From Nitrospira sp. (GTDB taxonomy: Bacteria > Nitrospirota > Nitrospiria > SBBL01 > JAADHI01), in NCBI GenBank assembly GCA_027020665.1, contig JALUVJ010000129.1, forward strand, positions 1-34,102: DNA of 34,102 nt. The letters are read 5' to 3'. The position numbers were made by a program, and so were the translations under genes. The notes beneath the pieces were generated by a model. That model was not told where the DNA came from, did no database searches, and saw only the letters and a program-made list of their open reading frames with translations. Numbering within the stretch: the stretch's first letter is position 1; each line of letters begins with the position of its first letter. Positions 3,481 to 30,158 of this stretch are shown piece after piece.

Positions 3481-4395
3481 ATGCGAATTTTCCCCGCTTT
3501 TGCCTCAAAATGCTGTGCCTGTTTTATCCGGATGTTTTGTTTAACGGTGCTTTTTGTTACAAATACGCAGGCCGCGCCGCCTATTGCCGTGGTTGCCACG
3601 CTTCCTGTTTTAAAAGATTTGGCCGAGGCCGTCGGCAAAGAACATGTCCGGGTTTCAAGCTTAATCTCGGGTTTGGAGAGCGAACACACCTACACCCCCA
3701 AGCCGAGCGATCTGATTACGATTCAAAAAGCGAAAGTCTTGTTTCAAATCGGTCTGGATTTGGAGCTTTGGGTGAGGCCGCTGATTCAAAATGCGGACCG
3801 GCCGGATTTACCCCTTATCACGACTTCCCGAGAGGTGAAGGTGATTGAGACGGGTGCGGCGGATGATCACGGGCACGGTGCGGCCAATCCGCACATCTGG
3901 CTTGATCCGCAGAATGTAAAGGTGATGATCGGCCATATCTTAAAAGGCTTGATTGCCGCCGACCCGGATCACCGACAGGATTATGAAAAAAACGCCTCAG
4001 ACTATATTCGCGCCTTGGAAAACCTTGAGAAGGAGTTGAAAACAAAAGTCGGGCGATTGAAAGATAAAAAAATCATCACACATCATCCGGCCTGGCCCTA
4101 TTTTGCGCAACGCTTCGGTTTCGATATTCGCAGCAATATTTTGATGCAGATCGGCAGTGCGCCCTCGGCGAAAAAATTGGGTGTGCTGATTCGACAAATC
4201 AAAGAAGAAGGAATCCGGGTGATTGTTTCGGAGCCGCAGTTGAATCAGAAGATTCCGAGTATCCTGGCCGAAGAAACGGGTGCGACGGTAGTGCCGCTTT
4301 CTCCCTTGACGGGGGCGATTTCCGGAACGGATCATTACTTGGATCTGATGCGTTACAATATCGAAACTCTCGCCGCAGCCTTGGAAAAGCCCTAG
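3481..4395 (+). CDS. znuA: Zinc/manganese ABC transporter periplasmic binding protein (ZnuA-like)
   Basis: Cluster A-I metal-binding receptor that hands Zn2+ or Mn2+ to the permease. From the ATG at 3481 it has 304 residues with a signal peptide (a basic start, then MFCLTVLFVTNTQA, cleavage near residue 31). Candidate metal ligands are the His in SEHTYTPKPSD, the His in ANPHIWLDP, the His pair in IITHHPAWPYF and the Asp in SGTDHYLDLM. A very short His/Asp loop (DDHGHG) precedes PHIW, much less His-rich than in E. coli ZnuA. A TTG 36 bp upstream could also open the frame but adds residues ahead of the signal peptide, so I reject it. Zn versus Mn cannot be decided from sequence. Confidence 0.9.
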   Translation: MRIFPAFASKCCACFIRMFCLTVLFVTNTQAAPPIAVVATLPVLKDLAEAVGKEHVRVSSLISGLESEHTYTPKPSDLITIQKAKVLFQIGLDLELWVRPLIQNADRPDLPLITTSREVKVIETGAADDHGHGAANPHIWLDPQNVKVMIGHILKGLIAADPDHRQDYEKNASDYIRALENLEKELKTKVGRLKDKKIITHHPAWPYFAQRFGFDIRSNILMQIGSAPSAKKLGVLIRQIKEEGIRVIVSEPQLNQKIPSILAEETGATVVPLSPLTGAISGTDHYLDLMRYNIETLAAALEKP

Positions 4396-4399
4396 CGTT

Positions 4400-4420
4400 G
4401 CGTCAAGTGTGAAGTGACGC
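4400..4420. repeat. Inverted repeat GCGTCA-N9-TGACGC between znuA and znuC
   Basis: Two perfect 6-bp arms (GCGTCA 4400-4405, TGACGC 4415-4420) separated by 9 bp begin 5 bp after the znuA stop. In RNA this makes a small stem-loop, which could protect the upstream message or set the receptor-to-ATPase ratio; in DNA it could be a regulator site. It has no T-tract, so it is not a convincing terminator. Confidence 0.4.
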
Positions 4421-4436
4421 TTACAGGAAGCTGATG

Positions 4437-4460
4437 ATGAATTTGAGATTGTTTAAATGA
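4437..4460 (+). CDS. Possible 7-residue leader mini-ORF overlapping the znuC start
   Basis: ATG at 4437 opens the peptide MNLRLFK and stops at TGA 4458-4460, which overlaps the znuC ATG (4457) as ATGA. AGGAAG at 4425-4430 is 6 bp from this ATG, whereas znuC itself has no Shine-Dalgarno at proper distance. The arrangement suggests ribosomes load on the mini-ORF and reinitiate at znuC. It is very short and may be chance. Confidence 0.35.
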   Translation: MNLRLFK

Positions 4461-5251
4461 CGGCGCAGCCGATTGTTCAGTTTTCGCAGGCGAGCTTTGC
4501 TTACAATGGTCACACTGCTCTTGAAGATTTGACGCTGGACTTACACGAAGGGGAGTTTGTCGGCGTAATCGGTCCGAACGGTTCCGGAAAGACGACCCTG
4601 CTTAAAGCCTTGTTGGGATTAATGCATCCTGTTTCCGGTGCGCTTCAGATTTTTGATTGCGCCTGCCAGGCCTTGCGCTGTGAACACCGGGCACGCATCG
4701 GTTATTTGCCGCAAAAAGAAAAGACCGACCCCAACTATCCGATTACGATCTGGGAGGTCGCCATGATGGGGCGCTACGGGTCTTTGGGTTTGATAAAGCG
4801 GCCTTCCAAAGCAGACCGTGAAATCGTGCTGGACGCACTGGATTCCGTTGATATGGCGGATTTAAAGGACCATCCTTTTGGTCATCTTTCGGGCGGAGAG
4901 CAGCAGCGTGTGCTGATCGCGCGTGCACTGGCGCAGCGGCCTGAAATTCTGTTGCTGGATGAACCCACAACAGGCATTGATGCGACAACACAGCGGCGCT
5001 TGGTTGAACTAATCTGCAAGGTGCATCAGGCCTACCGTTTGACGATTGTCTTGGTGACACACGATATTAATATGATTAGTAGCATTGCTGAAACAATTTT
5101 ACTTCTAAAAACAAAACTTTATGCAAAAGGCCCGCCTGCTGAAATATTGACAAAGGACGTGCTTTCGCCCGTTTACGGCGAAGAAGTGATTATCGCAAAA
5201 CGGGATCAAAAGCCCTATATCATCCTCAGCGACGAACATCATCATGCTTGA
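4457..5251 (+). CDS. znuC: Zinc/manganese ABC transporter ATP-binding protein (ZnuC-like)
   Basis: ATPase of the metal importer, 264 residues. Walker A GPNGSGKTT near residue 39, signature LSGGEQQRVLIARAL near 145, Walker B EILLLDEPTTGID and the switch VLVTHDINMIS are all intact. The region after the Q-loop (MMGRYGSLGL) is typical of the metal-type ABC ATPases. The C-terminus ends with EHHHA, a small His cluster that is also seen in some homologues. The gene overlaps the permease by 8 bp and probably depends on upstream translation, since its own start has no clear Shine-Dalgarno. Confidence 0.93.
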   Translation: MTAQPIVQFSQASFAYNGHTALEDLTLDLHEGEFVGVIGPNGSGKTTLLKALLGLMHPVSGALQIFDCACQALRCEHRARIGYLPQKEKTDPNYPITIWEVAMMGRYGSLGLIKRPSKADREIVLDALDSVDMADLKDHPFGHLSGGEQQRVLIARALAQRPEILLLDEPTTGIDATTQRRLVELICKVHQAYRLTIVLVTHDINMISSIAETILLLKTKLYAKGPPAEILTKDVLSPVYGEEVIIAKRDQKPYIILSDEHHHA

Positions 5252-6062
5252 ATTGCTTTCTTACGGTTTTATGCAGCGTGCCTTCATTGCCTCACTGCTC
5301 ATCGGTCTGGTTTGCTCGACAATCGGGGTTTTTGCCGTTTTAAGGGGCATCACCTTTATCGGTGCGGGCACCGCACACGCGGCTTTTGCAGGGGTGACTC
5401 TGGCTTTTTTAACGGGGCTTCCGCCTTTTCTGATGGCGGTGATCAGCGGGCTTTCCATGGTGTGGGTGACGACTTACGTGCAGGAAAAAGGTAAGATGAA
5501 ACCCGATGTCCCGATCGGCGTTTTTTATACCTTTACGATGGCGCTGGCGATTTTTTTTATCGGCTTGATGCAAGGGTATCGCCCGGAAGTGTTTGCCTAT
5601 CTCTTCGGCAGCATTCTCTCCGTGACACAATCGGACCTCATCGTCATCTTGGTGCTTTCACTTGCCATCCTTCTTGTGCTCGCTCTTTTTTTTAAGGAAT
5701 TTCATTTTATTTCTTTCGATCAGGAAATGGCCGAAGCCAGCGGCATCCCGGCAAAAAAGCTCAGTTTTTTGCTTTTGAATTTGATTGCTTTAGCGGTGGT
5801 GATTGCGTTGAAGGCCGTTGGGGCGATTTTGGTTTTTGCTTTGTTGGTCATTCCGGCCGCCGCAGCGCAGCAGTGGGCACACAACATGCGGTCGATGATG
5901 ATCTATTCGGCCCTCATCGGTGTGGGAGCGTCCTGGACGGGTGTGCTGCTTTCTTACTGGTTTGATGTGCCTTCGGGGGCGACGATTGTGCTCTTGGCCT
6001 CCGCAGTCTTTTTATTCTCTGTGCTTTTTCCCGGGAAGCGTCAGGGTTTGCGGCGCTTCTGA
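5244..6062 (+). CDS. znuB: Zinc/manganese ABC transporter permease (ZnuB-like)
   Basis: Inner-membrane channel subunit, 272 residues, of the ABC-3 permease family. The protein is almost entirely hydrophobic with about eight to nine predicted membrane spans. Family text includes QRAFIASLLIGLVCSTIGVF at the N-terminus, GAGTAHAAFAGV, the PDVPIGVFYTFTMALAI segment, the FDQEMAEASGIPAK loop that faces the ATPase, and LKAVGAILVFALLVIPAAAA. It overlaps znuC by 8 bp, so stoichiometric synthesis is likely. It converges with the malic enzyme gene 26 bp downstream. Confidence 0.94.
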   Translation: MLELLSYGFMQRAFIASLLIGLVCSTIGVFAVLRGITFIGAGTAHAAFAGVTLAFLTGLPPFLMAVISGLSMVWVTTYVQEKGKMKPDVPIGVFYTFTMALAIFFIGLMQGYRPEVFAYLFGSILSVTQSDLIVILVLSLAILLVLALFFKEFHFISFDQEMAEASGIPAKKLSFLLLNLIALAVVIALKAVGAILVFALLVIPAAAAQQWAHNMRSMMIYSALIGVGASWTGVLLSYWFDVPSGATIVLLASAVFLFSVLFPGKRQGLRRF

Positions 6063-6088
6063 TTCAATCCGGATTGCCCTTTACCGCC

Positions 6089-7528
6089 TCACTGTTTTTT
6101 TATTCGGCCTCTGCCGACTTTTTTCTCACGCCGGGCCACACCGCTCTTAATGGCGGCTTCGGAGACCGCCTGTGCGACCACTTTGGCCACACGACGGTTG
6201 AAGACACCGGGAATGATGTAATCCTCGGAAAGCTCTTCTTCGCGGATCATCGAGGCGATGGCGATGGCTGCGGCCAAATCCATTGCTCCGTTGATTTCCG
6301 AGGCACGGACATCCAGCACGCCGCGGAAGATCCCGGGGAAAGCCAGGACGTTGTTGATTTGATTCGGATAGTCGGAGCGGCCCGTTGCCATGACGCGCGC
6401 AATATCCGCCGCGTCTTCCGGCATGATTTCCGGGGTCGGGTTGGCGAGCGCAAACACAATGGGGTCGCACGCCATATTCAGGATGCCTTTTCGGCTGAGC
6501 GCACTCGGTCCTGAGACGCCGATAAAAACATCGGCGTCTTGTAAGGCATCGTCCAAAGCCCCTTTTTCTTTTTCGAAATTGGTCATTTTTGCGTATTCCT
6601 GTTTCATCGGAATCATGCCCTTGCGTCTGCCGGTATAAATGATGCCTGTCCGGTCGCAGCCGATCAGGGTTTTCACGCCGTAATCGATTAAGATCTTGGT
6701 GATGGCGACCCCGGCGGCGCCGATGCCGTTGACAACAACCTTTAAGTCACCGACTTTTTTATGAACGACTTTTGCGGCATTGATCAGCGCAGCCAAGACG
6801 ACGATGGCGGTACCGTGTTGGTCGTCATGAAAGACGGGGATTTTAAGGCGTTTTTTGAGTTGGGCTTCGATTTCAAAACAGCGCGGAGAAGAAATATCCT
6901 CCAGGTTTACAGCGCCAAAGCCGGGAGAAATGGCTTCGATGGTGTTGATGATTTCCTTTGTGTTTTGTGTCTTTAGGCAGATGGGATAGGCATCCACGCC
7001 GCCGAATTCTTTAAAAAGCATGGCTTTGCCTTCCATGACCGGCATGGCGGCCTCCGGTCCGATGTTGCCCAGCCCCAGTACTGCCGAACCGTCGGTTACA
7101 ATCAAGACGCTGTTTTTTTTGATTGTGAGTGAAAAAGCTTTGTTTTTATCCTCATGAATTGCCATGCACACCCGCGCGACGCCGGGTGTGTAGGCGCGGG
7201 AAAGGTCGTCGCGTGTTTTTAAGGGGATTTTGTTTTTGAGTTCTATTTTCCCGCCCAAGTGCAGCAGAAAGGTGCGATCGGAGCGGTGTAGCAAGGTGAC
7301 GCCGGAAAGCTTGTCGAGTGCGGCTTCGATTTCTTTGAGATGGGTTTCGTTCCGTGTTTTAAAGGTAAGATCACGCAAAATCATACCGTCTTCGGTATTG
7401 ACGATGTCAATGGCGTCAATGTCTCCGCCCGCTTTGCCGACGGCGGAAGTAATTTTGCCGAGCATGCCGATTTTATTGGGAAATTTAAGCCGAAGTGTGA
7501 CGCTCCGGCTTGCACTGAGTTGCTCCAT
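6089..7528 (-). CDS. NAD(P)-dependent malic enzyme with N-terminal ACT domain
   Basis: Oxidative decarboxylation of malate to pyruvate in the cytoplasm. 479 residues: an ACT domain at about 8-85 (LRLKFPNKIGMLGKITSAVG, then GGDIDAIDIV), a malic enzyme N-terminal domain (SRAYTPGVARVCMAI with the catalytic Tyr, VLGLGNIGPEAAMPVMEGKA) and an NAD-binding domain (metal-binding Asp in VFHDDQHGTAIV, dinucleotide loop GIGAAGVAI, ALANPTPEI). ACT domains usually bind an amino acid or similar effector, so allosteric control is likely, but the ligand cannot be read. It sits 15 bp downstream of ogt on the same strand; GAGGAC just before the ATG serves as ribosome site. Pyruvate kinase is encoded elsewhere in the window. 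Confidence 0.94.
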   Translation of the reverse strand: MEQLSASRSVTLRLKFPNKIGMLGKITSAVGKAGGDIDAIDIVNTEDGMILRDLTFKTRNETHLKEIEAALDKLSGVTLLHRSDRTFLLHLGGKIELKNKIPLKTRDDLSRAYTPGVARVCMAIHEDKNKAFSLTIKKNSVLIVTDGSAVLGLGNIGPEAAMPVMEGKAMLFKEFGGVDAYPICLKTQNTKEIINTIEAISPGFGAVNLEDISSPRCFEIEAQLKKRLKIPVFHDDQHGTAIVVLAALINAAKVVHKKVGDLKVVVNGIGAAGVAITKILIDYGVKTLIGCDRTGIIYTGRRKGMIPMKQEYAKMTNFEKEKGALDDALQDADVFIGVSGPSALSRKGILNMACDPIVFALANPTPEIMPEDAADIARVMATGRSDYPNQINNVLAFPGIFRGVLDVRASEINGAMDLAAAIAIASMIREEELSEDYIIPGVFNRRVAKVVAQAVSEAAIKSGVARREKKVGRGRIKKQ

Positions 7529-7543
7529 TTGAGTCCTCGTCTC

Positions 7544-8092
7544 TTAAAAACGCGATGAAAAACGCCCTTCTTTTATGATAATGCCTTCCAAGGCTAACAA
7601 TTTTTTCTTGATTTCGATACCTCCGGTATATCCACCCAGCGTCCCGTTTTGGCGCACAACCCGGTGGCAGGGAATAATGACGGGAATAGGATTTTTACCG
7701 CAGGCGTTTCCGATTGCGCGGCCTGCGCGCTCCAAGGCCATCTGTTCGCCGACCCATTGATAACTGCGCACGGTCCCGTACGGAATTTCGAGCAAGGTCC
7801 GCCAGACGCTTTGCTGGAAAGGGCTGCCTTCCAAAAAGGAAATCGGGCCGTCAAAGACAATTGCCTCTCCGGAGAAATAACGGACCAAGGGGCCACGCCA
7901 TCGTGACATTTGGTTCAGTTTTTTTAAGGGGCGTCGGCCTGTTCTGCTTTCAATCTCGGTCAGGAGTAAGTCTTCGCTTTTTCCTCTAATGAGGTAAGAG
8001 AGTCCCGCCGGACCGGCGACGATCCAGAGCGGCCCCAGGGGCGATTCAAAATAGTCATAATAGAGTTCGGGCCGGGAGCCTGTTTTGTCCAT
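7544..8092 (-). CDS. ogt: Methylated-DNA--[protein]-cysteine S-methyltransferase
   Basis: Suicide repair protein that takes the alkyl group from O6-alkylguanine onto a cysteine. With the ATG at 8092 it has 182 residues, the usual size for Ogt. The active-site motif IPCHRVV contains Cys142; flanking family text is SPFQQSVWRTLLEIPYGTVRSY, GRAIGNACGKNPIPVIIPC and GTLGGYTGG. An in-frame GTG at 8233 would add 47 residues with no family similarity I can see, and neither start has a good Shine-Dalgarno, so the start is uncertain. The gene is followed by malic enzyme and is divergent from the cyclophilin gene. Confidence 0.92.
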   Translation of the reverse strand: MDKTGSRPELYYDYFESPLGPLWIVAGPAGLSYLIRGKSEDLLLTEIESRTGRRPLKKLNQMSRWRGPLVRYFSGEAIVFDGPISFLEGSPFQQSVWRTLLEIPYGTVRSYQWVGEQMALERAGRAIGNACGKNPIPVIIPCHRVVRQNGTLGGYTGGIEIKKKLLALEGIIIKEGRFSSRF

Positions 8093-8296
8093 CGGAGGAT
8101 TGGTATTCCCTTTGGCCGGATTTTTTGTCCGTGATGAAAATGCATCCAAGCCAAGGATATCATATTGTTTAAAAAAGTCATCGATTTTACTGTGTGATGT
8201 CCCTAAAAATTTCGGGCTGCTTTCTGTTCGCACAGGGCTTAAATACGCTGAGGCCCGAATGGGCCGCGCGCTTCCGGCTTGTCATCCCTGTTTCCT

Positions 8297-8302
8297 TATA
8301 GT
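8297..8302 (+). promoter_or_regulatory. Possible -10 element of the cyclophilin gene
   Basis: TATAGT at 8297-8302 lies 55 bp ahead of the cyclophilin start, with a weak -35 candidate TTCCGG (8272-8277) at a long 19-bp spacing. A GGCCC-GAAT-GGGCC inverted repeat (8252-8265) sits just upstream. Weak evidence. Confidence 0.3.
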
Positions 8303-8357
8303 AATATCCCGCGATATTTGTGTGGCAGGTTTTTTAATGTTGGGAGGAAAAAAGAAG

Positions 8358-8960
8358 ATGACTTATTTCAATTTATTTCTGGCCGTCTCGATCATGATGA
8401 TGACGCTCATTCCGGAGGCTTCCGCAGAAGAAAAGAAGCTCGCGCCAGGATTGTACGCAATCTTTAATACTTCGCAGGGTAAAATCACGGTACAGCTTTT
8501 TGAAAAAGAATCACCCAAAACAGTGGCAAACTTTGTCGGTCTGGCGGAAGGGACAAAGGAATGGACGGATCCCAATTCCAAAGAAAAGGTCAAAAAACCC
8601 TTTTATAACGGCATCATTTTTCATCGTGTGATCCCGGGGTTTATGATTCAGGGCGGTGATCCGCTAGGTTCGGGCATTGGCGGACCCGGTTATCAGTTTG
8701 AGGATGAATTTGACTCGGACTTAAAGTTTGACCGGCCGGGCCGTTTGGCGATGGCAAACGCGGGACCGAATACAAACGGCAGCCAATTTTTTATCACGGA
8801 AGGTGCAACAACGCATCTGAATAATAAACACACGATCTTTGGCCAGGTTTATGACGGGCAGGACATTGTGCAAAAGATCGCCCGCGTGCCGCGTGACCGA
8901 CGGGATCGGCCGAATACACCCGTGGTCATTGAGACGCTTGAGATTGTGCGCATCAAATAA
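8358..8960 (+). CDS. Exported peptidyl-prolyl cis-trans isomerase, cyclophilin type
   Basis: Protein-folding enzyme that isomerises X-Pro bonds, probably in the periplasm. From ATG 8358 it has 200 residues: a signal peptide (NLFLAVSIMMMTLIPEASA, cleavage before EEKK) and one cyclophilin domain from about residue 32. Seen: ITVQLFEKESPKTVANFVGLA, FYNGIIFHRVIPGFMIQGGD with the catalytic Arg, GPNTNGSQFFIT and HTIFGQVYDGQDIV. The start is fixed by GGGAGGA at 8342-8348, 9 bp upstream; the open frame continues further upstream into the ogt region but that part is not plausible protein. It converges with glgC, with 33 bp between the stops. Confidence 0.94.
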   Translation: MTYFNLFLAVSIMMMTLIPEASAEEKKLAPGLYAIFNTSQGKITVQLFEKESPKTVANFVGLAEGTKEWTDPNSKEKVKKPFYNGIIFHRVIPGFMIQGGDPLGSGIGGPGYQFEDEFDSDLKFDRPGRLAMANAGPNTNGSQFFITEGATTHLNNKHTIFGQVYDGQDIVQKIARVPRDRRDRPNTPVVIETLEIVRIK

Positions 8961-10816: not shown

Positions 10817-13315
10817 ATGACGGATGTAATACAAAAAGACACCCGCTTTTTCGCCCCGGTTTATCGGGAGGTTTCGCGTGAAGGCCTTAGGCTTCTCATT
10901 GACCCGGAGACCCCGCATTGGATGACAACCGATGTGCGCGGTGCGCGCATCATGCGCCTGCTCGACGGTCAGCGCGATTTTTCAGAAATTGTCCGGCACT
11001 ATGCTCGTGCGGAAGATACGGATTGGAGTTTGGCATGGCTGCACTGCCACAGTTTTTTGCAAGACGCGCTGCGCAGAAATTTTATCTCCGAATCGCCCCG
11101 GCTTAAGGCACCCTATCCCGGCCGTGCCGAAACCCTGCGGCTTGATCATTTGACCGACTTATGGCTGCATGTGACGAATGCCTGCAACCTGGCCTGCGAA
11201 CATTGTCTGGTGGATTCTTCCCCAAGCGGCGAGGCGGGAGGGGATACCGATTTTTGGCGACGCACGATTGACCAGGGCCTGGCTTTGGGGGTGACCCGTT
11301 TTTTTATCACGGGAGGAGAGCCTTTTTTGCGCGAGGATATTTTTGAAATTATCGACCACATTTTGTCTCCGCCGCATGGGGAAAAAACCGAATTGATGAT
11401 TTTGACCAACGCCATGCTCTTCCGGGGCAAACACCTCAAACGCCTCACGACTTATGCGCCCGATGCCTTTCAACTTCAGATCAGTCTCGACGGACCTACA
11501 GCCGAAATCAACAACCCCATTCGGGGCAAGGGCAGCTTTGACGCAACCGTTCGCGGCATTAAAGAAGTGATCGGTCTCGGCTTTTCTCCCACCCTCACCA
11601 CGGTCGTCAATCGCGCGAATATTGCGCACTTGCCTGAGATGGTGAAACTGGGCGCTTCCCTGGGCATCAAAAATATTCACCTTTTGTTAAGCCATCATCG
11701 CGGGCGGGCCGCAGGCACTGAAAGTCTTAAATCGCCCTCTGCTTCGGCATTACTGCATGCCTTTAAAACCGTTAAACGCTTGAGCAATGAAGCAGGGATG
11801 ACTTTTGATAACGATGACGTGCTCTTGGGAAAATTGATGGGGCCTTCCGGTGTGAAAGGTGACCTTTCGAATGCGGGTTATGAATCACTTTGTGTTTATG
11901 CCGATGGGCAGGTTTATCCCTCCGCAGCCTTAGCCGGTATTCCGGCGCTTCGTATGGGGAATCCCGATGAAACCTCACTGGAAGCCATCTGGCGCAGTGC
12001 GGCCCTTGCGGAAGAAATGCGACAGTGCACGGTTCAAAAAAAGCGCAAGTGCAAAGATTGTTACCTGAAATATTTGTGCGGGGGCGGCGACATCGAACAC
12101 ACTTATCTTTACAGCGGTCAATTTATGGGGGAAGATCCTTTTTCAGAATTTTATGAACAGCGGATTTTGGACTTGCTCTTTGAATTGGCACAAAAAAAAT
12201 CACGGCAAACCACTGCTTCGGGTTATGATCGGCCCGTGATTTTCTCGGCAATGGGTGAAGGGGCTGTTGTTGAAGACATCGTGCCGGGCGCGCCTGCCGT
12301 CGGGGGATTTGAGGTTTCACTCTCCCGCTCGGCCTGTGTCTTGTCGGTTGATTTGGATCACTCCCGCCGTGTCGTGAGTGATTTTTACGGGGATGCCGCA
12401 GATGTGCCGCAACCCGCCTTGTGCTGTCCCGATGTTTATTCCGATCACGACAGTGAACACATTCCGCAAGAAGTCATGGATATTTCTTACGGCTGTGGCA
12501 GTCCCGTGGGTCTTGCCGATGTTTCGGAGGGAGAAACGATGGTGGACTTGGGCTCCGGCGGCGGCATCGATTGTTTTATTGCAGCCAAGAAAGTCGGGCC
12601 GTCGGGAAAAGTTGTAGGCATCGATATGACGGATCAAATGCTGCGTAAAGCCCGGCGTGCGAAAGAAAAGGTGATAAAAAATCTGGGTTTTGAGAATGTG
12701 ACGTTTAAAAAAGGGTATTTGGAAGATATCCCCCTGCCGGATCAGTTTGCGGATTTGATAACCTCAAATTGTGTCATCAATCTTTCCCCGGATAAAAAGC
12801 AGGTTTTTGTCGAAATCTGGCGCGTTTTGAAAGACTTCGGCCGTATTGTCGTTTCCGACACAATTTCAGAAAAGCCCGTGCCGGAAGGCATGCGTGCCAA
12901 TCCGCGGCTCTGGGGCGAGTGTGTTTCCGGGGCCCTCACCGAAACGGAATACATCGCAAAGATGGAGCAAGCGGGATTTTATGGGCTCTCTATCTTAAAA
13001 CGCAGCCTTTGGAAAGAAGTGGAGGGTTACCGTTTCTTTTCAGTCGTCATTCGAGGTTATAAATTTCAAAAAAAGGCGGCTTGCCGCTACATCGGGCAGG
13101 AGGCGACTTATTTAGGTCCAATGCAGGCCGTCATGGACGAAGAAGGCCACTTTTTTCCACGCGATCAAGCCGTTGCCGTCTGCACGGACACGGCGGAAAA
13201 ATTGAAAAAACCACCCTACCAATCCGATTTTGTCGTGACTCAGGGCGATCAGGCCGGGGTGCGCAGCCCGCAGGACACGGACAATCCCTGTTGTGAACCC
13301 GAAGCGTGCTGTTAA
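10817..13315 (+). CDS. Fusion protein: PqqD-like domain, radical SAM/SPASM enzyme and ArsM-like arsenite methyltransferase
   Basis: 832 residues. Residues ~15-90 resemble PqqD-like peptide-recognition domains (WMTTDVRGARIMRLLDG, then a DFSEIV helix). The radical SAM core has CNLACEHC (C123, C127, C130) and GGEP (166-169). A SPASM-like cysteine set follows (C359, C404, C412, C415, C421) that could hold auxiliary Fe-S clusters. From ~530 it is a class I methyltransferase of ArsM type: YGCG (C560), SAM loop VDLGSGGGID, SNCVINLSPDK (C652) and WGECVSGAL (C702). The CC pair at 536-537, C560, C652 and C702 match the four arsenite-binding Cys known in ArsM. The C-terminus ends PCCEPEACC. It has its own promoter and terminator, so is monocistronic. 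By family knowledge ArsM methylates As(III); the chemistry of the radical half is unknown. No arsR, arsB or arsC is nearby. Confidence 0.88.
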   Translation: MTDVIQKDTRFFAPVYREVSREGLRLLIDPETPHWMTTDVRGARIMRLLDGQRDFSEIVRHYARAEDTDWSLAWLHCHSFLQDALRRNFISESPRLKAPYPGRAETLRLDHLTDLWLHVTNACNLACEHCLVDSSPSGEAGGDTDFWRRTIDQGLALGVTRFFITGGEPFLREDIFEIIDHILSPPHGEKTELMILTNAMLFRGKHLKRLTTYAPDAFQLQISLDGPTAEINNPIRGKGSFDATVRGIKEVIGLGFSPTLTTVVNRANIAHLPEMVKLGASLGIKNIHLLLSHHRGRAAGTESLKSPSASALLHAFKTVKRLSNEAGMTFDNDDVLLGKLMGPSGVKGDLSNAGYESLCVYADGQVYPSAALAGIPALRMGNPDETSLEAIWRSAALAEEMRQCTVQKKRKCKDCYLKYLCGGGDIEHTYLYSGQFMGEDPFSEFYEQRILDLLFELAQKKSRQTTASGYDRPVIFSAMGEGAVVEDIVPGAPAVGGFEVSLSRSACVLSVDLDHSRRVVSDFYGDAADVPQPALCCPDVYSDHDSEHIPQEVMDISYGCGSPVGLADVSEGETMVDLGSGGGIDCFIAAKKVGPSGKVVGIDMTDQMLRKARRAKEKVIKNLGFENVTFKKGYLEDIPLPDQFADLITSNCVINLSPDKKQVFVEIWRVLKDFGRIVVSDTISEKPVPEGMRANPRLWGECVSGALTETEYIAKMEQAGFYGLSILKRSLWKEVEGYRFFSVVIRGYKFQKKAACRYIGQEATYLGPMQAVMDEEGHFFPRDQAVAVCTDTAEKLKKPPYQSDFVVTQGDQAGVRSPQDTDNPCCEPEACC

Positions 13316-13516: not shown

Positions 13517-14590
13517 ATGGCGCAAATCGACACCTTGTTTAAAACATTAAAGGAAAAAGGCGGCTCGGATTTGCACCTTTCCCCTGATAATCCGCCGCTC
13601 ATGCGGGCCGCAGGAGATTTGGTTCCGGTTTTGGAGCATGCGCTTGCGCGTGAGCAAATTAAAACCCTGCTCAAAGAGATCATGTCCGAGTCTCAGAATA
13701 AACAGTTTGAGAAAACGCGGGATCTGGATTTTGCCTATGAGGTGCCTGCCCTGGCCTCGCGCTTTCGGGCGAATATCTTCTATGGCCGCCTGGGCATCAG
13801 TGCCGTTTTTCGTCTGATTCCGACTACGATTTTAACGGTTGAGCAACTGGGACTTCCACCCGCCGTGCTGCGTTTTGCACAGCTCAAAAAAGGCCTGGTA
13901 TTAGTGACCGGCGGGACGGGCAGCGGGAAATCGACCACACTGGCCGCCTTGATCGATCACATCAATAAAACACAAAAGGAGCATGTTCTTACGGTCGAAG
14001 ACCCGATTGAGTTTGTTCATAAAAGTCAGAACAGTTTGATTAACCAGCGAGAGGTCGGACGGCATACGATTTCCTTTGCTTCCGCTTTGAAAGCGGCCTT
14101 ACGTGAAGATCCCGATATTATTTTGGTCGGAGAGATGCGTGATCTGGAAACGATTGAGCTTGCCATTACGGCTGCGGAAACCGGACACCTTGTTTTTGGC
14201 ACCTTACATACCAGCAGTGCCGCAAAGACGGTGGATCGCGTCATCAATGTTTTTCCCACAAATCAACAGGAGCAGATCCGTGCCATGCTTTCCGAATCCC
14301 TCAAGGGCGTTATTGCACAGCAACTCTTAAAAACCGTGGATGGGAAACGGGCGGCAGCCTTGGAAATTCTCTATGTTACTCACGCGGTGTCCAATTTGAT
14401 TCGGGAGGGTAAAACCTTCCAAATCCCCTCGATCATTCAAACCGGGAAAAAAGAGGGCATGCAGCTTATGGATCAGGCTTTACAGGATTTGCTCACCCAA
14501 AAACGGGTTACGGTTGAAGAAGCGTATAAGTTTGCGGTCAACAAAGCACTCTTCCCCCTTCCCACTCAAGGAGGGGTTTCGCATGAATGA
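13517..14590 (+). CDS. pilT: Type IV pilus retraction ATPase PilT
   Basis: Hexameric ATPase that depolymerises the pilus for twitching, DNA uptake or surface sensing; 357 residues, normal length. Seen: the N-terminal SDLHLSPDNPPLMRAAGDL domain, Walker A TGGTGSGKSTT near residue 133, Asp box VEDPIEFVH, Walker B region DPDIILVGEMRDLETIELA, His box GTLHTSSAAKTVDRVINVFP, and a C-terminal NLIREGKTFQIPSIIQTGKK matching the AIRNLIRE helix of PilT. PilU or a social-motility paralogue is possible. No other pilus gene is in the window. The stop overlaps the next gene by 8 bp. Confidence 0.93.
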   Translation: MAQIDTLFKTLKEKGGSDLHLSPDNPPLMRAAGDLVPVLEHALAREQIKTLLKEIMSESQNKQFEKTRDLDFAYEVPALASRFRANIFYGRLGISAVFRLIPTTILTVEQLGLPPAVLRFAQLKKGLVLVTGGTGSGKSTTLAALIDHINKTQKEHVLTVEDPIEFVHKSQNSLINQREVGRHTISFASALKAALREDPDIILVGEMRDLETIELAITAAETGHLVFGTLHTSSAAKTVDRVINVFPTNQQEQIRAMLSESLKGVIAQQLLKTVDGKRAAALEILYVTHAVSNLIREGKTFQIPSIIQTGKKEGMQLMDQALQDLLTQKRVTVEEAYKFAVNKALFPLPTQGGVSHE

Positions 14591-15035
14591 CCGGAAAATC
14601 GAAAAAAAGATTCGCAAGGTTTTTTTTCTGCTGTCGGACCACAGCAAAATTGACGGCCATGTGTTTTTGAGCCTCTATGAAGTCACCCACTCCGGACCCC
14701 AAAATCTGGGCGATTTGCTGAATGGGGAGGACGAGTTTATTCCGCTTAAAACGGAAAAAGGCATTGTATTGCTTAACCGGACCCACATTGTGCAAGCCAG
14801 AATCGACTCGGAAGGGGAATCGGACGACATTATGAAAATGGGCAGCGGTTATTCGATTTGCGCAAAGATGGGCGTCGGCGAATCGGTTGAAGGCGATATC
14901 TTTATCTCGCTGCAAGACGGTCGTTTCGGTCGTGTAAAAGACTATGCGAACCTCCCCTTCACCTTCCTTCGCTTGTTTCAACCGAAGCATGTGGTGTACC
15001 TTAACCAACATTATATCATTTCCATTCATGACTAA
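14583..15035 (+). CDS. Unknown cytoplasmic protein with two similar ~50-residue halves, coupled to pilT
   Basis: 150 residues from ATG 14583, preceded by AAGGAGGGG (14568-14576) inside the end of pilT. No signal peptide or membrane segment. Two halves show the same pattern: first IDGHVFLSLYE, later LLNGEDEFIPL and VLLNRTHIV; second VEGDIFISLQD, later DYANLPFTFLRL and VYLNQHYII. This looks like an internal duplication of a small beta-rich domain with a D/N-F-x-x-L core. I have seen such FIPL-type domains in uncharacterised proteins of other bacteria, but know no function. Translational coupling suggests a role with PilT or surface sensing; this is inference. Confidence 0.8.
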   Translation: MNDRKIEKKIRKVFFLLSDHSKIDGHVFLSLYEVTHSGPQNLGDLLNGEDEFIPLKTEKGIVLLNRTHIVQARIDSEGESDDIMKMGSGYSICAKMGVGESVEGDIFISLQDGRFGRVKDYANLPFTFLRLFQPKHVVYLNQHYIISIHD

Positions 15036-17690: not shown

Positions 17691-18152
17691 ATGAAAACCA
17701 AGAAACATACGTCTTCCGGCGGCGTTGTTTACAAAGTTGAAGACGAGCAACTCCGGGTCATCCTCATCTGTCATCATAATTTGAAAGGCAAGCTTATTTG
17801 GTGCCTGCCCAAAGGATCGATCGAAAAGGGGGAAACCCTGCCCGAAACGGCCTTGCGGGAAGTGCGTGAAGAAACCGGCACCCACGGGAAAATCCTGGAG
17901 AAAATCGGTCAAATCCAGTACTGGTTTTATTCACGCCAAGAAGAGATGAAAATTTTCAAAACCGTCCATTTTTATCTCTTGGAATATCTCAACGGCAATG
18001 TCTGCGATCATGACGGCGAAGTGGACGAGGCCCGCTGGGTGCCTCTGCAGAAAGGCTTGGACATGCTTACCCACAATAGCGAACGCTCCATTTTGGAAAA
18101 GGCCGGTCGCTATCTCTCGGCGCGTTTCGGCCGGGATGTTGACACGTCCTAA
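17691..18152 (+). CDS. Nudix hydrolase
   Basis: Hydrolyses a nucleoside diphosphate linked to another group; 153 residues. The Nudix box GX5EX7REUXEEXGU is complete at about 42-64 (GSIEKGE, then ALREVREETG). N-terminal SSGGVVYKV and the compact size resemble ADP-ribose, Ap4A or 8-oxo-dGTP type enzymes; LIWCLPKG before the box is frequent in Ap4A hydrolase-like members. The substrate cannot be decided. A possible -10 TAATAT (17613-17618) lies in the 160-bp gap before it; FHA gene follows 152 bp later. Confidence 0.9.
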   Translation: MKTKKHTSSGGVVYKVEDEQLRVILICHHNLKGKLIWCLPKGSIEKGETLPETALREVREETGTHGKILEKIGQIQYWFYSRQEEMKIFKTVHFYLLEYLNGNVCDHDGEVDEARWVPLQKGLDMLTHNSERSILEKAGRYLSARFGRDVDTS

Positions 18153-18268
18153 CACAACTTCAAGCGGGTCTTCGCGGCTTCAGCCAAACCCTATCTTTTT
18201 TCTTTTTATCCCCTTCAAATCAGCCTGTTTTCGGTGTTGCCGCACGGCATGCGAAAGCCCGCCCTTGT

Positions 18269-18297
18269 TTGACAAGCAATCACTTATAAAATACACT
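18269..18297 (+). promoter_or_regulatory. Promoter of the FHA-kinase operon
   Basis: A consensus -35 TTGACA (18269-18274), a 17-bp spacer and TACACT (18292-18297) as -10. Expected transcription start is about 18303-18305, that is, at the GTG start codon itself. A leaderless transcript is therefore possible. Confidence 0.6.
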
Positions 18298-18304
18298 TTT
18301 TACT

Positions 18305-19405
18305 GTGTTTAAAGATCTCATTTATAAGGAAAACAAGGTCTTCTCCACACCGCTCAAATCTTCCGAATCCATTGAAGCACTGCTGAGCAAAACCAAAGAA
18401 AAAGAAGACCTTAGCACTGCAATTGTCCTCATCGAGGGAAATGCGCCGACCAAGGCGCTTTTCATTCTTGAGAACAAATGCTATGCCGCTTATTGCCTTG
18501 ATATGTTCGACTTTTCCCCGCTGATTTTTTCGGGCGGTTTGAAAGAAGCCTCCGGGTTTAAAGGCGAACTTCAGCTTTATCAGGTGAGTCCCGTTTTATT
18601 TAAATGTCTGCTTATTTTTGCTCAATATTTGCCGAGTGTTGTCGGCACAACGGCCCTTATTGATATTGAACGGATTTTGGCGCCGATCCACGAACAAAAA
18701 AAAGAAGCCGTCCTTGTTTTTAAAAAGAAATCGCAGGTTCAACTCTTTTATTTTATGAACGGCAAGGTTTGCGATACCTATTTTACAGGGCAAAACGAGA
18801 TCCGTGCTTCACAGGATCTTAAAGCGCAGTTGATTGCCGCTGCCAAACAAGATCCTGAGATGCGGATCGAGCTTTTTGATGAAACAGAAATAAAAGCCGC
18901 ACACGACAGAGAAAATGCGGAAGAGCGTATTGCGGAAGCCCCTGCAATGCCTGCGCAAAATGAAGACGCGGAGGGGGAAAATCAGGCCGCTGATGTTCAA
19001 GCCGGGCTTGATATCCCTGACCCGTCTTCTGAAACCGCAGAGGAAAATGCGCGCGGTGCGCTTCAGGATGGAAACGGGACTGAGGCCCCTTCTTTTGAAA
19101 AAGCCGAAGGGGAGAGACTCTTGTGTGTGAAGGTCCTTTCCGGTAGCCGGGCCGGCTTTTTGATTCGTTTTTCGCCGGATCCGGTTTCCCTGGGACGCGG
19201 AAACGTTGCCGTGCGCCTCAATGATCCGCAGGTTTCCCGTTTTCACGCGGAATTGGCCTGGGGGAAAGACGGGCTTTTTATCCGGGACAACCACAGTACA
19301 AACGGTATTTTAGTCAACGATGAAAAAGTCGATCAAAAAACACTCCGCCTCAATGATGTAATCCGCTTGGGTGATGTCCGCTTAAAGGTTGTGCGCGGAT
19401 CATGA
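18305..19405 (+). CDS. FHA-domain protein with novel N-terminal domain
   Basis: 366 residues with a GTG start; an in-frame TAA at 18287 rules out an upstream start and there is no Shine-Dalgarno. The C-terminal ~95 residues are a forkhead-associated domain that binds phosphothreonine: SLGRG, then QVSRFHAEL and DNHSTNGILVND carry the conserved Gly-Arg, Ser-x-x-His and Asn-Gly. Residues ~1-195 form a globular domain I do not recognise (IVLIEGNAPTKALFILENKC, then QVQLFYFMNGKVCDTYF, two similar-looking beta segments). Between them ~200-270 is an acidic Ala/Glu-rich linker. The stop overlaps the kinase gene by 4 bp, so it is probably a substrate or recruited partner of that kinase. Confidence 0.87.
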   Translation: MFKDLIYKENKVFSTPLKSSESIEALLSKTKEKEDLSTAIVLIEGNAPTKALFILENKCYAAYCLDMFDFSPLIFSGGLKEASGFKGELQLYQVSPVLFKCLLIFAQYLPSVVGTTALIDIERILAPIHEQKKEAVLVFKKKSQVQLFYFMNGKVCDTYFTGQNEIRASQDLKAQLIAAAKQDPEMRIELFDETEIKAAHDRENAEERIAEAPAMPAQNEDAEGENQAADVQAGLDIPDPSSETAEENARGALQDGNGTEAPSFEKAEGERLLCVKVLSGSRAGFLIRFSPDPVSLGRGNVAVRLNDPQVSRFHAELAWGKDGLFIRDNHSTNGILVNDEKVDQKTLRLNDVIRLGDVRLKVVRGS

Positions 19406-21813
19406 ATCTCTCCAATTGGCAGCATGATCTGCTCCCGCCGCTGCTTTCCGTACTGGAACTGGCTCAAAACTATTTGCTGACCCTGTCCACAACAACCATC
19501 ATCGCGTATCTCTTGTTGATCGGTTTGATTGTTTGGGGCTATTCCCTCTTCAAAAAATACCGGGTCATGCAATTTGAAAACTCCCACAGCATTTCCAGAG
19601 GCATTGAGCGTGCGGCCCGATCAGGAGACCCTCTCATGGCGGGAGAGCTTTATGAACAAGCTCAGGATTATCAGCAGGCAATTCAGGCCTACAAATCGGT
19701 GAGAGCCTTTCAGCAGGTCGGGCGTGTTTATGAGCATTTAAAACAGTGGGATGATGCCGCGCAGTTTTACAGTTTGTCCGGGGATTCTGAGAAGTCGGCC
19801 ATCATGTATCAGCGCGGGGGAAATTATCTGGACGCCGCCGAATGCTACCTTTCCTGCAATAAAAACATCCTTGCCGCCGAAATGTACGAAAAGGGGCGGG
19901 AATATAAAAAGGCCGCCGCCCAGTATGAGAAGTTTGGGAAACAGTTGAAATCGGCCCATCTTTATAAACTTTCCGAGGATTACGAACGTGCGGCGGAAAA
20001 ATACGAAGCCTATTTTTTAAAACAGAAAGTGGTTTCGACAAATCACTCTGTCGAAAAACAGCAACAAGTCAAGCAGGCGGCTTTTGAAAGCGGCACGCTC
20101 TATATGAAAATCAAACGTTTTCGAAAAGCCATGGAGATTTTTTCAGCCGCCGATTTTTCGGAACAAGCCGCGGAAGCTGCGGTGCATGCCGGTGAAATTG
20201 AGAAGGCGGCGCAATTTTACTTGGCGGCACACCTCTTCGAAAAGGCGGCGAAGATTTATGATGCCATGGGGGATGAAAAACAGGGCCACTGGATTATGGC
20301 AAAAAAATACCAGGAAGAAGGCGATTTTTTAGAGGCGGCCAAGGCCTTTGAACTGGGTGAAAGTTGGGTCGAAGCGGCTGAAATGTATGAGAAGTCTGGT
20401 TACACGACCGGCGCGGCGGATATGTACCAGCATGCCGGGGATTATCACCGCGCCGCAGACCTTTTTCTTTCAAACGGGAATCTTGAGGGCGCGGCCAAAT
20501 CGCTTGAAAGAGGTGGGCGTTTGGAAGAAGCTGCGGAGCTTTATGTCAAGCTGAAAAAATTTGACCGTGCCGCGCAAATGCAGGAATTAATTGGCGATTA
20601 TTACGCTGCGGCGCTTTTGCTGAAACAAGAAGGGGATGTGGATCGCTGTATCTCCTATCTGCAAAAGGTGAATCCGGACGCACCCGATTTTGTTTCTGCT
20701 TCCGGACTCTTGGGAGAGTTATTGCTTGAGCGCGGCATGGTTTCTGCGGCAAAAGACTGTTTCCAAAAAGTCATTGCCAAGAATCCCATCTCCGATAAAA
20801 ATATCGAAATCTACTACCGTTTTGCCGCACTGCATGAATCGGAAAAAGAATTTAAAGAAGCAGAAGCACTTTACGAAGCGATTTTGCAAAAAAATTATAA
20901 CTACAAGGATGTTAAACAACGCAGTATGCTGCTTAAAAAAGCTTTAAAAGAGGTCAACAAAGCACTCCATGATAGTCAGGAAGAAAGTCCGCTTAAAACG
21001 GTTGCTTCAGACAACAAAGCCCCGGCACGGTATAAAATGATTCGGAAAATCGGTCAAGGCGGTATGGGTGTCGTTTATCTGGCGGAAGATGCCATTCTAA
21101 AGCGTCAAGTGGCGTATAAAATCCTTCCGCAATCCATTCGTGAAAATCCGGCCGTTCTTCAAAATTTCCTTCAGGAAGCACGCATTGCGGCGGCTTTGAA
21201 TCACCCGAATATCGTCACCATTTTTGATACCGGGAAAAACGGTGACGACATTTACATCACGATGGAATTCATTGACGGAATTAGCCTGAAACATTATTTG
21301 GAGCGCTACCGCGCTCCCTTAAGGGAGCGGATTGGAATTATGAAATCCATCTGCCGCGGGGTGATTTATGCCCATGAGCGACAAGTTATTCACCGGGACT
21401 TAAAACCCGCAAATGTCATGTTGCTTAAAGATCGCACCGTCAAAATCATGGATTTCGGCTTGGCCAAGATGATGACGGATACCATGCAGGAAAAGACCTC
21501 GATCAAGGGCACGCCCCTTTATATGTCTCCGGAACAAATTGTCGGCGAGAAAGTGGATACGGCCTCTGATATCTATTCCCTGGGGTGCACATTTTACCGT
21601 ATGCTGACGGCACGCCCCCCTTTTTCAAAAGGGGATATCTATTACCAACACTTGCATACCCCTCCTACACCGCCCAAAATGGTGACCCCTGAAATTCCGG
21701 CCGCTTTGGACGAAATCATCCTTAAATGTCTCGAAAAAGAAAAAGCAAAACGCTTCAAGTCCGTCAAGAAACTCCTTGAGGCCCTTTCCGCTCTGTCTCA
21801 AGTTGCCGCATAA
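19402..21813 (+). CDS. Membrane-anchored helical-repeat (TPR-like) Ser/Thr protein kinase
   Basis: 803 residues. One membrane span at about 33-50 (IIAYLLLIGLIVWGYSLF, then KKYR) leaves nearly all of the protein in the cytoplasm. Residues ~65-400 carry many short repeats of about 20 residues with an A-x-x-Y pattern (AGELYEQAQDYQQAIQAY, AAEMYEKGREYKKAAAQYEK), then longer TPR-like helices to ~520. A Hanks-type kinase domain fills 543-800: Gly loop GQGGMGVVY from 551, Lys573 in VAYK, HRDLKPAN at 664-671, DFGLAK at 684, GTPLYMSPEQ and DIYSLGCTFYRML. All catalytic residues are present. The kinase sits at the C-terminus, opposite to the commonest bacterial order. Coupled to the FHA gene. Confidence 0.92.
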   Translation: MNLSNWQHDLLPPLLSVLELAQNYLLTLSTTTIIAYLLLIGLIVWGYSLFKKYRVMQFENSHSISRGIERAARSGDPLMAGELYEQAQDYQQAIQAYKSVRAFQQVGRVYEHLKQWDDAAQFYSLSGDSEKSAIMYQRGGNYLDAAECYLSCNKNILAAEMYEKGREYKKAAAQYEKFGKQLKSAHLYKLSEDYERAAEKYEAYFLKQKVVSTNHSVEKQQQVKQAAFESGTLYMKIKRFRKAMEIFSAADFSEQAAEAAVHAGEIEKAAQFYLAAHLFEKAAKIYDAMGDEKQGHWIMAKKYQEEGDFLEAAKAFELGESWVEAAEMYEKSGYTTGAADMYQHAGDYHRAADLFLSNGNLEGAAKSLERGGRLEEAAELYVKLKKFDRAAQMQELIGDYYAAALLLKQEGDVDRCISYLQKVNPDAPDFVSASGLLGELLLERGMVSAAKDCFQKVIAKNPISDKNIEIYYRFAALHESEKEFKEAEALYEAILQKNYNYKDVKQRSMLLKKALKEVNKALHDSQEESPLKTVASDNKAPARYKMIRKIGQGGMGVVYLAEDAILKRQVAYKILPQSIRENPAVLQNFLQEARIAAALNHPNIVTIFDTGKNGDDIYITMEFIDGISLKHYLERYRAPLRERIGIMKSICRGVIYAHERQVIHRDLKPANVMLLKDRTVKIMDFGLAKMMTDTMQEKTSIKGTPLYMSPEQIVGEKVDTASDIYSLGCTFYRMLTARPPFSKGDIYYQHLHTPPTPPKMVTPEIPAALDEIILKCLEKEKAKRFKSVKKLLEALSALSQVAA

Positions 21814-29189: not shown

Positions 29190-29525
29190 TTGAAAATCGG
29201 TATCTTAATGACAACGAGTCCCGAACACCAAAACGGCCAAACGGTTTGTGCGCTGACGGAAGCCTTTCTTGCCGCGTCGCATCAGGTCCGTCTTTTTTTA
29301 ATGGATGACGGGATCTACCACATTGTGAAAAACAATGAAATCGGTGCGGCCGAAAAACTCCGGAGCCTGCTTTCGGCACAGATGACCGTTTCGATTTGCA
29401 GTCAGTCCGCGCAAAAACGCGGCATTGCCGAAGCGGATACCTTGCACGGCGCGGGATGGTTTTCTCAACATGAACTTGCTCATATTGTTGCGGATACCGA
29501 CCGTTTTCTTTCCTTTACAAATTAA
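29190..29525 (+). CDS. DsrE-family protein, TusD/DsrE-like
   Basis: 111 residues with a TTG start; AAAGGG lies 7 bp upstream. DsrE fold: KIGILMTTSPEHQNGQTVCAL, VRLFLMDDGIYHIV, and MTVSICSQSAQKRGI where Cys70 falls at the place of the active persulfide Cys of TusD/DsrE. By family knowledge these proteins pass sulfane sulfur as cysteine persulfide in sulfur relay for tRNA thiolation or in sulfur oxidation and reduction. First gene of a three-gene set; the next start is 20 bp on. Confidence 0.78.
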   Translation: MKIGILMTTSPEHQNGQTVCALTEAFLAASHQVRLFLMDDGIYHIVKNNEIGAAEKLRSLLSAQMTVSICSQSAQKRGIAEADTLHGAGWFSQHELAHIVADTDRFLSFTN

Positions 29526-29544
29526 AACGGGCTATAGAGATAGC

Positions 29545-29907
29545 ATGCGCCGAGATCGGGGGAAACAGGTTGCCATCATCATTCGGTCGGGGCCTTTTAA
29601 CACGCTGTGTGCGAGTGAGGCCTTCCGCACGGGTGTCGGTTTGACCCTTTCGGAACATAAGGTGACTTTTTTGCTGGTTCAGGACGGGGCCTATCATTTG
29701 ATGCCGCTACAAGGTAAAAAAATCGGTCGGCCTTCAATGTATGATTTTATTGCGGTTTTTGAAGAAATCGGGATAACATTGTGTGTTGATGCCGACGACA
29801 TGCTTGTCCGGAAAATCGAGCGAATCCCCGCAATCACCCGGCAATTGCCGCGAACAGAGGTTTTTCAGATGATTCGGGATGCCGATGTGGTGATTCCCTT
29901 TCAATGA
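29545..29907 (+). CDS. DsrE/F-family protein, TusC/DsrF-like
   Basis: 120 residues from ATG 29545. The frame is open further upstream (to 29425), overlapping the first gene, but the earlier part has no DsrE-type pattern. Seen: VAIIIRSGPFNTLCASEAFR, VTFLLVQDGAYHLMP, and FEEIGITLCVDADDML with Cys80, the position of the TusC-type cysteine. The QDGAY motif matches the first and third genes, so the three are paralogues. Its stop overlaps the third gene by 4 bp. Confidence 0.75.
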   Translation: MRRDRGKQVAIIIRSGPFNTLCASEAFRTGVGLTLSEHKVTFLLVQDGAYHLMPLQGKKIGRPSMYDFIAVFEEIGITLCVDADDMLVRKIERIPAITRQLPRTEVFQMIRDADVVIPFQ

Positions 29908-30158
29908 AAACCTTGCACATTCTCAGAAAAATCGATGATCCCTTTGTAAAATCGGTCATTGCCGATGAAGCCGCCCATCGACCGCTCACTCTGCTCTTGA
30001 TGCAAGACGGTGTTTTGGCCACGGGAGAGTTTCCGGAGGACACCTATGTGTGTCAGGAAGACCTTGCGGCGCGTGCTGCCGAAAGTCCGTATTTTCTGAT
30101 AAATTACGCCGGAATTACCCGTTTAATCACTGAGTGTGAACGTATCATTACCTGGTAA
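29904..30158 (+). CDS. DsrH/TusB-like protein
   Basis: 84 residues, the short size of DsrH/TusB. Opening MKTLHILRK and LTLLLMQDGVLA match this family; Cys50 in DTYVCQEDLAARA is the candidate relay residue. The ATG overlaps the previous stop (ATGA), so the three genes form one translationally coupled unit, D-C-B in order, as in TusDCB and DsrEFH. No TusE or DsrC, DsrAB or rhodanese gene is next to it, so its sulfur donor and acceptor are not visible here. Confidence 0.72.
   Translation: MKTLHILRKIDDPFVKSVIADEAAHRPLTLLLMQDGVLATGEFPEDTYVCQEDLAARAAESPYFLINYAGITRLITECERIITW

Follow-up and report, generated by a model that had tools for sequence, protein, structure and literature searches.

In the actinobacterial system of PknG and OdhI/GarA a serine/threonine (Ser/Thr) kinase with a helical-repeat scaffold is combined with an FHA protein, and according to the available text of PMC8546545 the autophosphorylated residues of PknG recruit the FHA domain of OdhI and, in mycobacteria and the majority of other actinobacteria, a rubredoxin forms part of the N-terminal region of PknG. 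A pair of a related kind, an FHA gene followed directly by a gene for a membrane-anchored Ser/Thr kinase, is encoded on the 34,102-nucleotide stretch of Nitrospira sp. DNA that was analysed here as a whole (assembly GCA_027020665.1, contig JALUVJ010000129.1; hereafter the window). The order of domains differs, since PknG consists of the N-terminal region, the kinase and C-terminal TPR, whereas here a membrane helix and a solenoid precede the kinase, and the window kinase is not a PknG. OdhI/GarA proteins carry a conserved ETTS motif, whereas the FHA protein of the window has a PATAN-like N-terminus and, aligned with its relatives, shows a conserved Thr only within the FHA domain; it scored 35.6 bits with the OdhI/GarA model NF041660 (cut-off 200) and was not counted as a member.

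The PpkA/PppA/Fha system of type VI secretion is similar in that an FHA domain reads the phosphothreonine made by a kinase (PMC3953482, available text). Among the open reading frames (ORFs) of the window no phosphatase or type VI secretion gene was recognised by eye or with Pfam, no search being aimed at the Tss families. To our knowledge, PpkA has no repeat solenoid. Clusters of CHASE2-kinase, PP2C and FHA genes share with the locus an FHA gene and a kinase domain placed C-terminally after a membrane sensor, and differ in having the CHASE2 sensor (Pfam-tested in locus L101 only) instead of a solenoid of 13-residue repeats and in including a PP2C gene. In L101, from a deltaproteobacterial metagenome-assembled genome, the genes for a CHASE2-kinase, a PP2C, an FHA protein and a protein with the N-terminal domain of the window FHA protein followed by two FHA domains stand in a row (3573-8625); L087, L092, L103 and L135 each have an FHA gene, a kinase and a gene that by eye resembles PP2C, and among these five loci only L101 encodes a protein with that N-terminal domain (hereafter N-FHA protein). 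The nearest likeness of the kinase domain is to PknB/PASTA kinases, from which the window kinase differs in having its kinase domain last and no PASTA (no Pfam match at E up to 0.1); their model NF033483 was the best of NCBIfam with 316.4 bits, under the cut-off of 450, and the kinase was not assigned to them. As far as the available texts go, both TPR-bearing kinases and the clustering of FHA genes with kinases have already been published (PMC1262709), as have kinases with the catalytic domain last (PMC2176072). Among the matches listed by our literature searches, whose coverage excluded most subscription journals, there was no paper on this gene pair; a scan of viral contigs returned no relative of it, and the best 80 matches of a scan of genome contigs were mostly generic kinases.

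A first protein search of 295 genomes of the phylum showed the pair in relatives. For the class Nitrospiria, profiles of the N-terminal domain of the FHA protein (A4, 22 rows) and of the repeat domain of the kinase (A7, 16 rows) were searched against 269 genomes (E-value cut-offs: 1e-6 and 1e-40, respectively). Each domain was found in 27 of the 269 genomes, the 27 being identical, and presence and absence of the two domains agreed at these thresholds in 269/269. All 27 pairs were adjacent on one contig and one strand, and 13 of the 27 carriers lay outside the 295-genome draw and had not been used in profile building. Both domains were absent from two genomes of otherwise pair-carrying genera (G302, 72% complete, and G308, 88% complete). 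The FHA gene came first in 24 pairs and the kinase gene in three (G131, G272 and G307); at the two loci of family f8 that were read, a short FHA gene preceded the kinase gene and the N-FHA gene followed it, the gene order therefore varying and the association staying. Most other neighbours differed between the 14 loci read. In a tree of 26 repeat domains the 14 FHA-linked ones clustered (support 93/95, midpoint root), and no FHA gene was present in the ~3.7 kb examined around each of the four other kinases of this genome that scored above the Pfam cut-off. Because the two domains occur together or are absent together in the class genomes, the two proteins very probably form one signalling unit. 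The genes, their overlap, the domains, the conserved residues and the joint inheritance across the class are observed, and the reading of the pair that we prefer, and consider rather probable, is that the kinase and its phosphothreonine reader make up an inner-membrane unit dedicated to phospho-signalling.

Several observations weigh against this reading or narrow it. A blind draw would match the 27 of 269 genomes with a chance of 1e-37, a figure that is far too small given the relatedness of the genomes; joint inheritance in kindred genomes is not 27 independent events, and the fair unit of independence is the seven families concerned (f1, f2, f7, f8, f9, f10 and f42). In G131, G272 and G307, all of f8, the solenoid is shorter, the repeat match covering only the last ~190 of 464 positions. 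Across the 295 phylum genomes the N-FHA domain was found in 21 (14 of the class, 7 of family f15) and the repeat domain in 32 (14 of the class, 18 others). In all seven f15 genomes the N-FHA protein was seen with no kinase found alongside: the retrieved 3.4-3.9 kb contained no kinase match, and neither did 15 kb around one of the seven. Two metabolic genes, taken by eye for a phosphoribosyltransferase gene and QueD, follow the FHA gene in 7/7, the same two each time. No FHA neighbour of the repeat protein, with or without its kinase, was detected in the 16 neighbourhoods inspected from the 18 genomes of other classes, although the greedy picking of ORFs in these neighbourhoods could have missed an FHA gene; 14 of the 16 were checked with hidden Markov models and two (G045 and G021) only by BLAST against the window proteins, G012 and G031 being left out. 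Solenoid relatives without a kinase exist (G113, G217, G192, G023 and G034; G279 matching in part), and the first duty of the solenoid may not be kinase control. The activation-loop Thr699 of the kinase is a T in 13/13 aligned FHA-linked kinases, and of three kinases without an FHA neighbour G021 and G002 have it and G016 does not; the residue is therefore no mark of the FHA link.

The first-pass annotation had proposed a coupled pair, had suggested neighbourhood conservation as a check and had named separation of the genes in relatives as an outcome that would count against it. Adjacency was found for all 27 pairs of the class, and the separation was seen outside it (in f15 and at the 16 repeat-protein loci) and not inside. 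Judged from the sequences, the coupling of FHA protein and kinase is firmly indicated to be strong but bound to one lineage. The features of the locus are listed below.

Table. Features of the FHA-kinase locus (positions in the window; residues of the respective protein in brackets).
Feature	Position	Strand	Basis or remark
Promoter running into the GTG start	18268..18307	+	TTGACA 18269-18274, 17-nt spacer, TACACT 18292-18297
FHA gene, 366 aa	18305..19405	+	GTG start at 18305, TGA stop at 19405; start agrees with relatives
N-terminal half-domain 1	18332..18604 (10-100)	+	resembles half 2; presumed PATAN/DUF4388-like by inference
N-terminal half-domain 2, probably PATAN/DUF4388-like	18626..18913 (108-203)	+	hhalign against DUF4388 profile
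Acidic Ala/Glu linker	18914..19111 (204-269)	+	where 7/14 aligned proteins have a second FHA domain
FHA domain with expected phosphothreonine-pocket residues	19112..19396 (270-364)	+	Pfam and alignment
ATGA overlap, FHA stop / kinase start	19402..19405	+	4 bp common to both ORFs
Kinase gene, 803 aa, membrane-anchored solenoid kinase	19402..21813	+	ATG start at 19402
Predicted membrane anchor	19477..19533 (26-44)	+	hydropathy; downstream region predicted cytoplasmic
Alpha-solenoid, 13-residue single-helix repeats	19630..20892 (77-497)	+	autocorrelation, AlphaFold2
Hanks-type Ser/Thr kinase domain	21031..21759 (544-786)	+	Pfam, motifs
Activation-loop Thr699, candidate autophosphorylation site and FHA ligand	21496..21498	+	inferred

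The catalytic domain belongs to the Hanks type (PF00069, E 1.4e-56, 192.3 bits against a cut-off of 31.7), and the motifs VAYK, HRDxKPxN, DFG and PEQ were present in 16/16 aligned kinases, with K573 invariant; the closest solved kinase domains were 5u94 and 1o6y. The catalytic-lysine motif VAYK (lysine codon 21118-21120) is common to all 16 kinases inside and outside the class. The anchor had a hydropathy of 2.18, and past residue 120 no 19-residue stretch exceeded 0.99. Lysine and arginine numbered 0 in the 15 residues before the anchor and 3 in the 15 after it, and around the best N-terminal segment they were more frequent after than before in 16/16 aligned kinases; because of this excess the repeats and the kinase domain are predicted to be cytoplasmic. 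The first-pass annotation had called the kinase turned around, and the order of anchor, repeats and kinase last is indeed as it described, but the order is not new, the CHASE2-kinase of L101 and the TPR-kinase of another locus (L061) also ending in the kinase domain. In the available text of a cyanobacterial survey most extra domains of kinases lie C-terminally, FHA and CHASE2 being exceptions (PMC2176072), and repeats before the kinase would therefore be the rarer order there.

The repeats had been taken for TPR, an assignment that their period of 13 residues, in place of the 34-residue helix-turn-helix repeat of canonical TPR, does not allow, even if some TPR models exceed their cut-offs on the solenoid (for example TPR_19, 36 against 25). 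Autocorrelation lags of 13, 26 and 39 were the top three in 13/16 kinases, within the top four in two more and within the top five in G272; lags 13 and 26 led in 4/4 kinase-less solenoid relatives tested, and the canonical TPR-kinase L061 had no 13-residue autocorrelation peak. The AlphaFold2 model of the kinase has a helix every 13 residues, with 263 residues at a predicted local distance difference test score (pLDDT) of at least 90 and residues 497-541 and 547-803 below 50; the modelled kinase domain (547-803) was not used for any inference. The fold of the solenoid matched LGN, consensus TPR, IFT-A and SNAP with Z of at most 14.5, as is usual for helical repeats, and a kinship with IFT was rejected on this ground, the solenoid being TPR-like only. 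The five solenoid relatives without a kinase are spread over three positions in the tree, two of these being flagged as long branches, perhaps wrongly joined, and on these sequences the kinase was likely lost or gained more than once among solenoid proteins.

Kinase-less membrane solenoids were seen in L224-L229 beside type II secretion genes, rpe or comEC: directly before gspC-D-E-F in L224 (Pfam-tested) and L225 (by resemblance), and with rpe as neighbour in L226 (Pfam-tested). A solenoid protein with or without a kinase directly precedes a comEC-like gene in L227, L230, L231, L078, L079 and L083, comEC being Pfam-tested in L227 (kinase-less) and L230 (kinase-bearing) and recognised by eye in the others. 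A glmM-like gene precedes the solenoid gene in L227, L230 and L231 (Pfam-tested in L230, by eye in the rest).

The FHA domain of the partner protein was identified with PF00498 (residues 294-356, E 8.8e-15, 55.3 bits against a cut-off of 20.7). Its motifs LGR, SRFH and STNG correspond to the residues GR, SRxH and SxNG, which we take to be the phosphothreonine pocket and which were retained in the last FHA domain of 14/14 aligned proteins. Two FHA domains, with pocket residues in both, occur in seven of these proteins; the other seven, among them that of the window, have a single one. The acidic Ala/Glu linker that had been described ahead of the domain is borne out by its composition (26% D+E and 21% A over residues 204-269).

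The ~195-residue N-terminus had been described as unrecognised, which stands in so far as Pfam returned no family at its cut-off over the first ~200 residues; profile comparison, on the other hand, points to a PATAN/DUF4388-like relation. DUF4388 is presumably the PATAN domain. Sub-threshold Pfam matches in the window protein were DUF4388 (E 0.087) and DUF5667 (E 0.034, over 187-251), and with 14.4 bits against a cut-off of 25 the protein is not a member of PF14332 (PATAN/DUF4388); over the 22 members of the N-terminal domain DUF4388 was the sole recurring match (9/22 at E up to 1, best 2.2e-5). A DUF4388 profile (A5) was built from 18 DUF4388 proteins of relatives and compared using hhalign. 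Half 2 aligned with it at P 9.4e-6 (probability 83, score 35.5), a score reached by none of 100 column shuffles (best 19.4), and half 1 aligned with half 2 at P 3.3e-4 (probability 38, score 24.8), again reached by none of 100 shuffles (best 21.1). The whole N-terminus gave P 7.2e-5 (probability 63), and half 1 compared directly with DUF4388 was weak (P 0.0035) and aligned over another part; in control comparisons with profiles of FHA, kinase and repeats and with reversed profiles, P was at least 0.14. The N-terminus is thus probably a double PATAN-like domain, a remote relation that appears through profile comparison only.

Structure prediction of this N-terminus, proposed as a check by the first-pass annotation, was run with AlphaFold2 on an alignment of two rows and was too poor to name a fold (pLDDT 42.4, predicted template modelling score 0.44); the secondary-structure pattern of the model is alike in both halves, which is a hint only. 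Foldseek with the model found nothing in the PDB at an E-value of 0.001 or better, and a sequence search of the PDB with the N-terminal profile gave a single match with E 1.6. Matches of the DUF4388 profile to the N-terminal domains of PilB/PilF-type ATPases were not used as evidence; they mostly start at profile position 47, and the FHA protein aligns at columns 2-53.

According to the reading that we prefer, one N-terminal membrane helix would hold the kinase at the inner membrane, and the long cytoplasmic solenoid of 13-residue repeats would be an arm on which partners dock or through which a signal comes in. The C-terminal Hanks-type domain would autophosphorylate, Thr699 being the likeliest site, and would also phosphorylate nearby targets; the FHA protein would read the phosphothreonine made in this way, whether it sits on the kinase or on a solenoid-bound target, and the PATAN-like double domain may relay the signal by protein-protein contact. 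Kinase activity, binding, target and direction of signalling are here what we infer.

The first-pass annotation had left both substrate and reader as roles of the FHA protein. If it were a substrate of the GarA/OdhI kind, the kinase would phosphorylate a Thr in its linker or N-terminus and the FHA domain would fold back, switching the protein off or on. In OdhI/GarA the FHA domain folds back onto the phosphorylated Thr. PknG phosphorylates OdhI and GarA ahead of the FHA domain (PMC8546545, available text), and the acidic linker of the window protein does contain Ser and Thr; however, the only T column conserved in at least 10 of the 14 aligned proteins is T332, inside the FHA domain, and none lies outside it, which speaks against a conserved phosphoacceptor and a substrate of this type, and in seven relatives a second FHA domain occupies the position of the linker. 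A phosphosite that moves between species would escape such a column test, and yet we regard the substrate role as unlikely; with the pocket residues kept throughout the alignment, reader appears the better of the two roles.

A role like that of Fha in type VI secretion, where the FHA protein would bind a third protein phosphorylated by the kinase, and not the kinase, and would assemble a membrane machine, is possible but doubtful. PpkA phosphorylates TssL and Fha binds its phosphothreonine (PMC3953482), and cyanobacterial PATAN domains have been linked to the type IV pilus motor (PMC7690835), both as given in the available texts, but no third gene is constant over the 14 loci, the commonest being a NUDIX gene at 6/14. 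The PATAN-like output domain, together with the gsp, comEC and pilT neighbours, suggests a further role for the unit, that of a phosphothreonine switch acting on the machinery of type IV pili, type II secretion or DNA uptake, which seems to us decidedly improbable. Both the window and G254 have a pilT-like gene 3.7 kb upstream; G175 and G159 lack it at this position. A shared operon by history only, with no functional link, would fit the genes standing apart outside the class, but is hardly credible, since the two domains agreed in presence and absence across all class genomes searched, whereas most of the other neighbours vary. The dedicated unit of kinase and phosphothreonine reader is the reading retained here.

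The 4-bp overlap of the two genes was as the first-pass annotation had described it, with both ORFs in place and ATGA shared, and the same overlap was found in 11/12 FHA-to-kinase junctions read, the exception being G157, where a gap separates the genes and the kinase start is unsure. Upstream of the FHA gene only 7 nt separate the -10 element from the GTG, and a leaderless FHA mRNA is therefore predicted. The promoter scan gave this site 10 of 12 but is weak by itself, having returned 7 promoter-like sites where shuffled sequences gave 5.3 +/- 2.1. The 40-nt promoter-to-start pattern (TTGACA-17-TANACT, GTG 7 nt on) was found in 7/7 genomes of genera g1 and g2, a single time in each and always ahead of the FHA gene (in one of them with 1 mismatch), in 0/14 other relatives searched and not in the reversed control (0). 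The spacer of the element is conserved in part. These patterns hint that the FHA mRNA is leaderless and that the conserved spacer is perhaps also an operator.

Around the pair, a NUDIX gene (window 17691-18152, by eye) adjoins or lies near it in the window and in G175, G159, G254, G183 and G232, an association that spans the order and reaches once beyond it (G232). The window and G254, G175 and G159 share one order with aroC, NUDIX, FHA and kinase genes. At 13517-15035 the window has a pilT-like gene followed by a gene for a small DUF6812 protein; G254 has both, and in G175 and G159 the small gene occupies this position but pilT is missing. Further genes of the window encode an 832-aa protein combining radical SAM/SPASM and methyltransferase domains (10817-13315) and small ORFs, two of them overlapping, with a DsrE/DsrH-type sulfur-relay look by eye only (29190-30158). 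Elsewhere in this genome a sigma-54 activator with two N-terminal FHA domains is encoded (L233:3763-5373).

New here is the combination of a 13-residue solenoid before the kinase, a PATAN-like FHA protein and joint presence or absence across the class. Newly added parts are the double PATAN-like domain fused to FHA, as the probable reading has it, and the solenoid of 13-residue repeats, which occurs both with a kinase and without one. The pair very probably forms a signalling unit whose kind is broadly known and some of whose parts are unusual. Since its two domains are jointly present or absent in every class genome searched, the assignment of the partners is unusually firm, and the locus offers a clean, testable pair of kinase and reader outside model bacteria.

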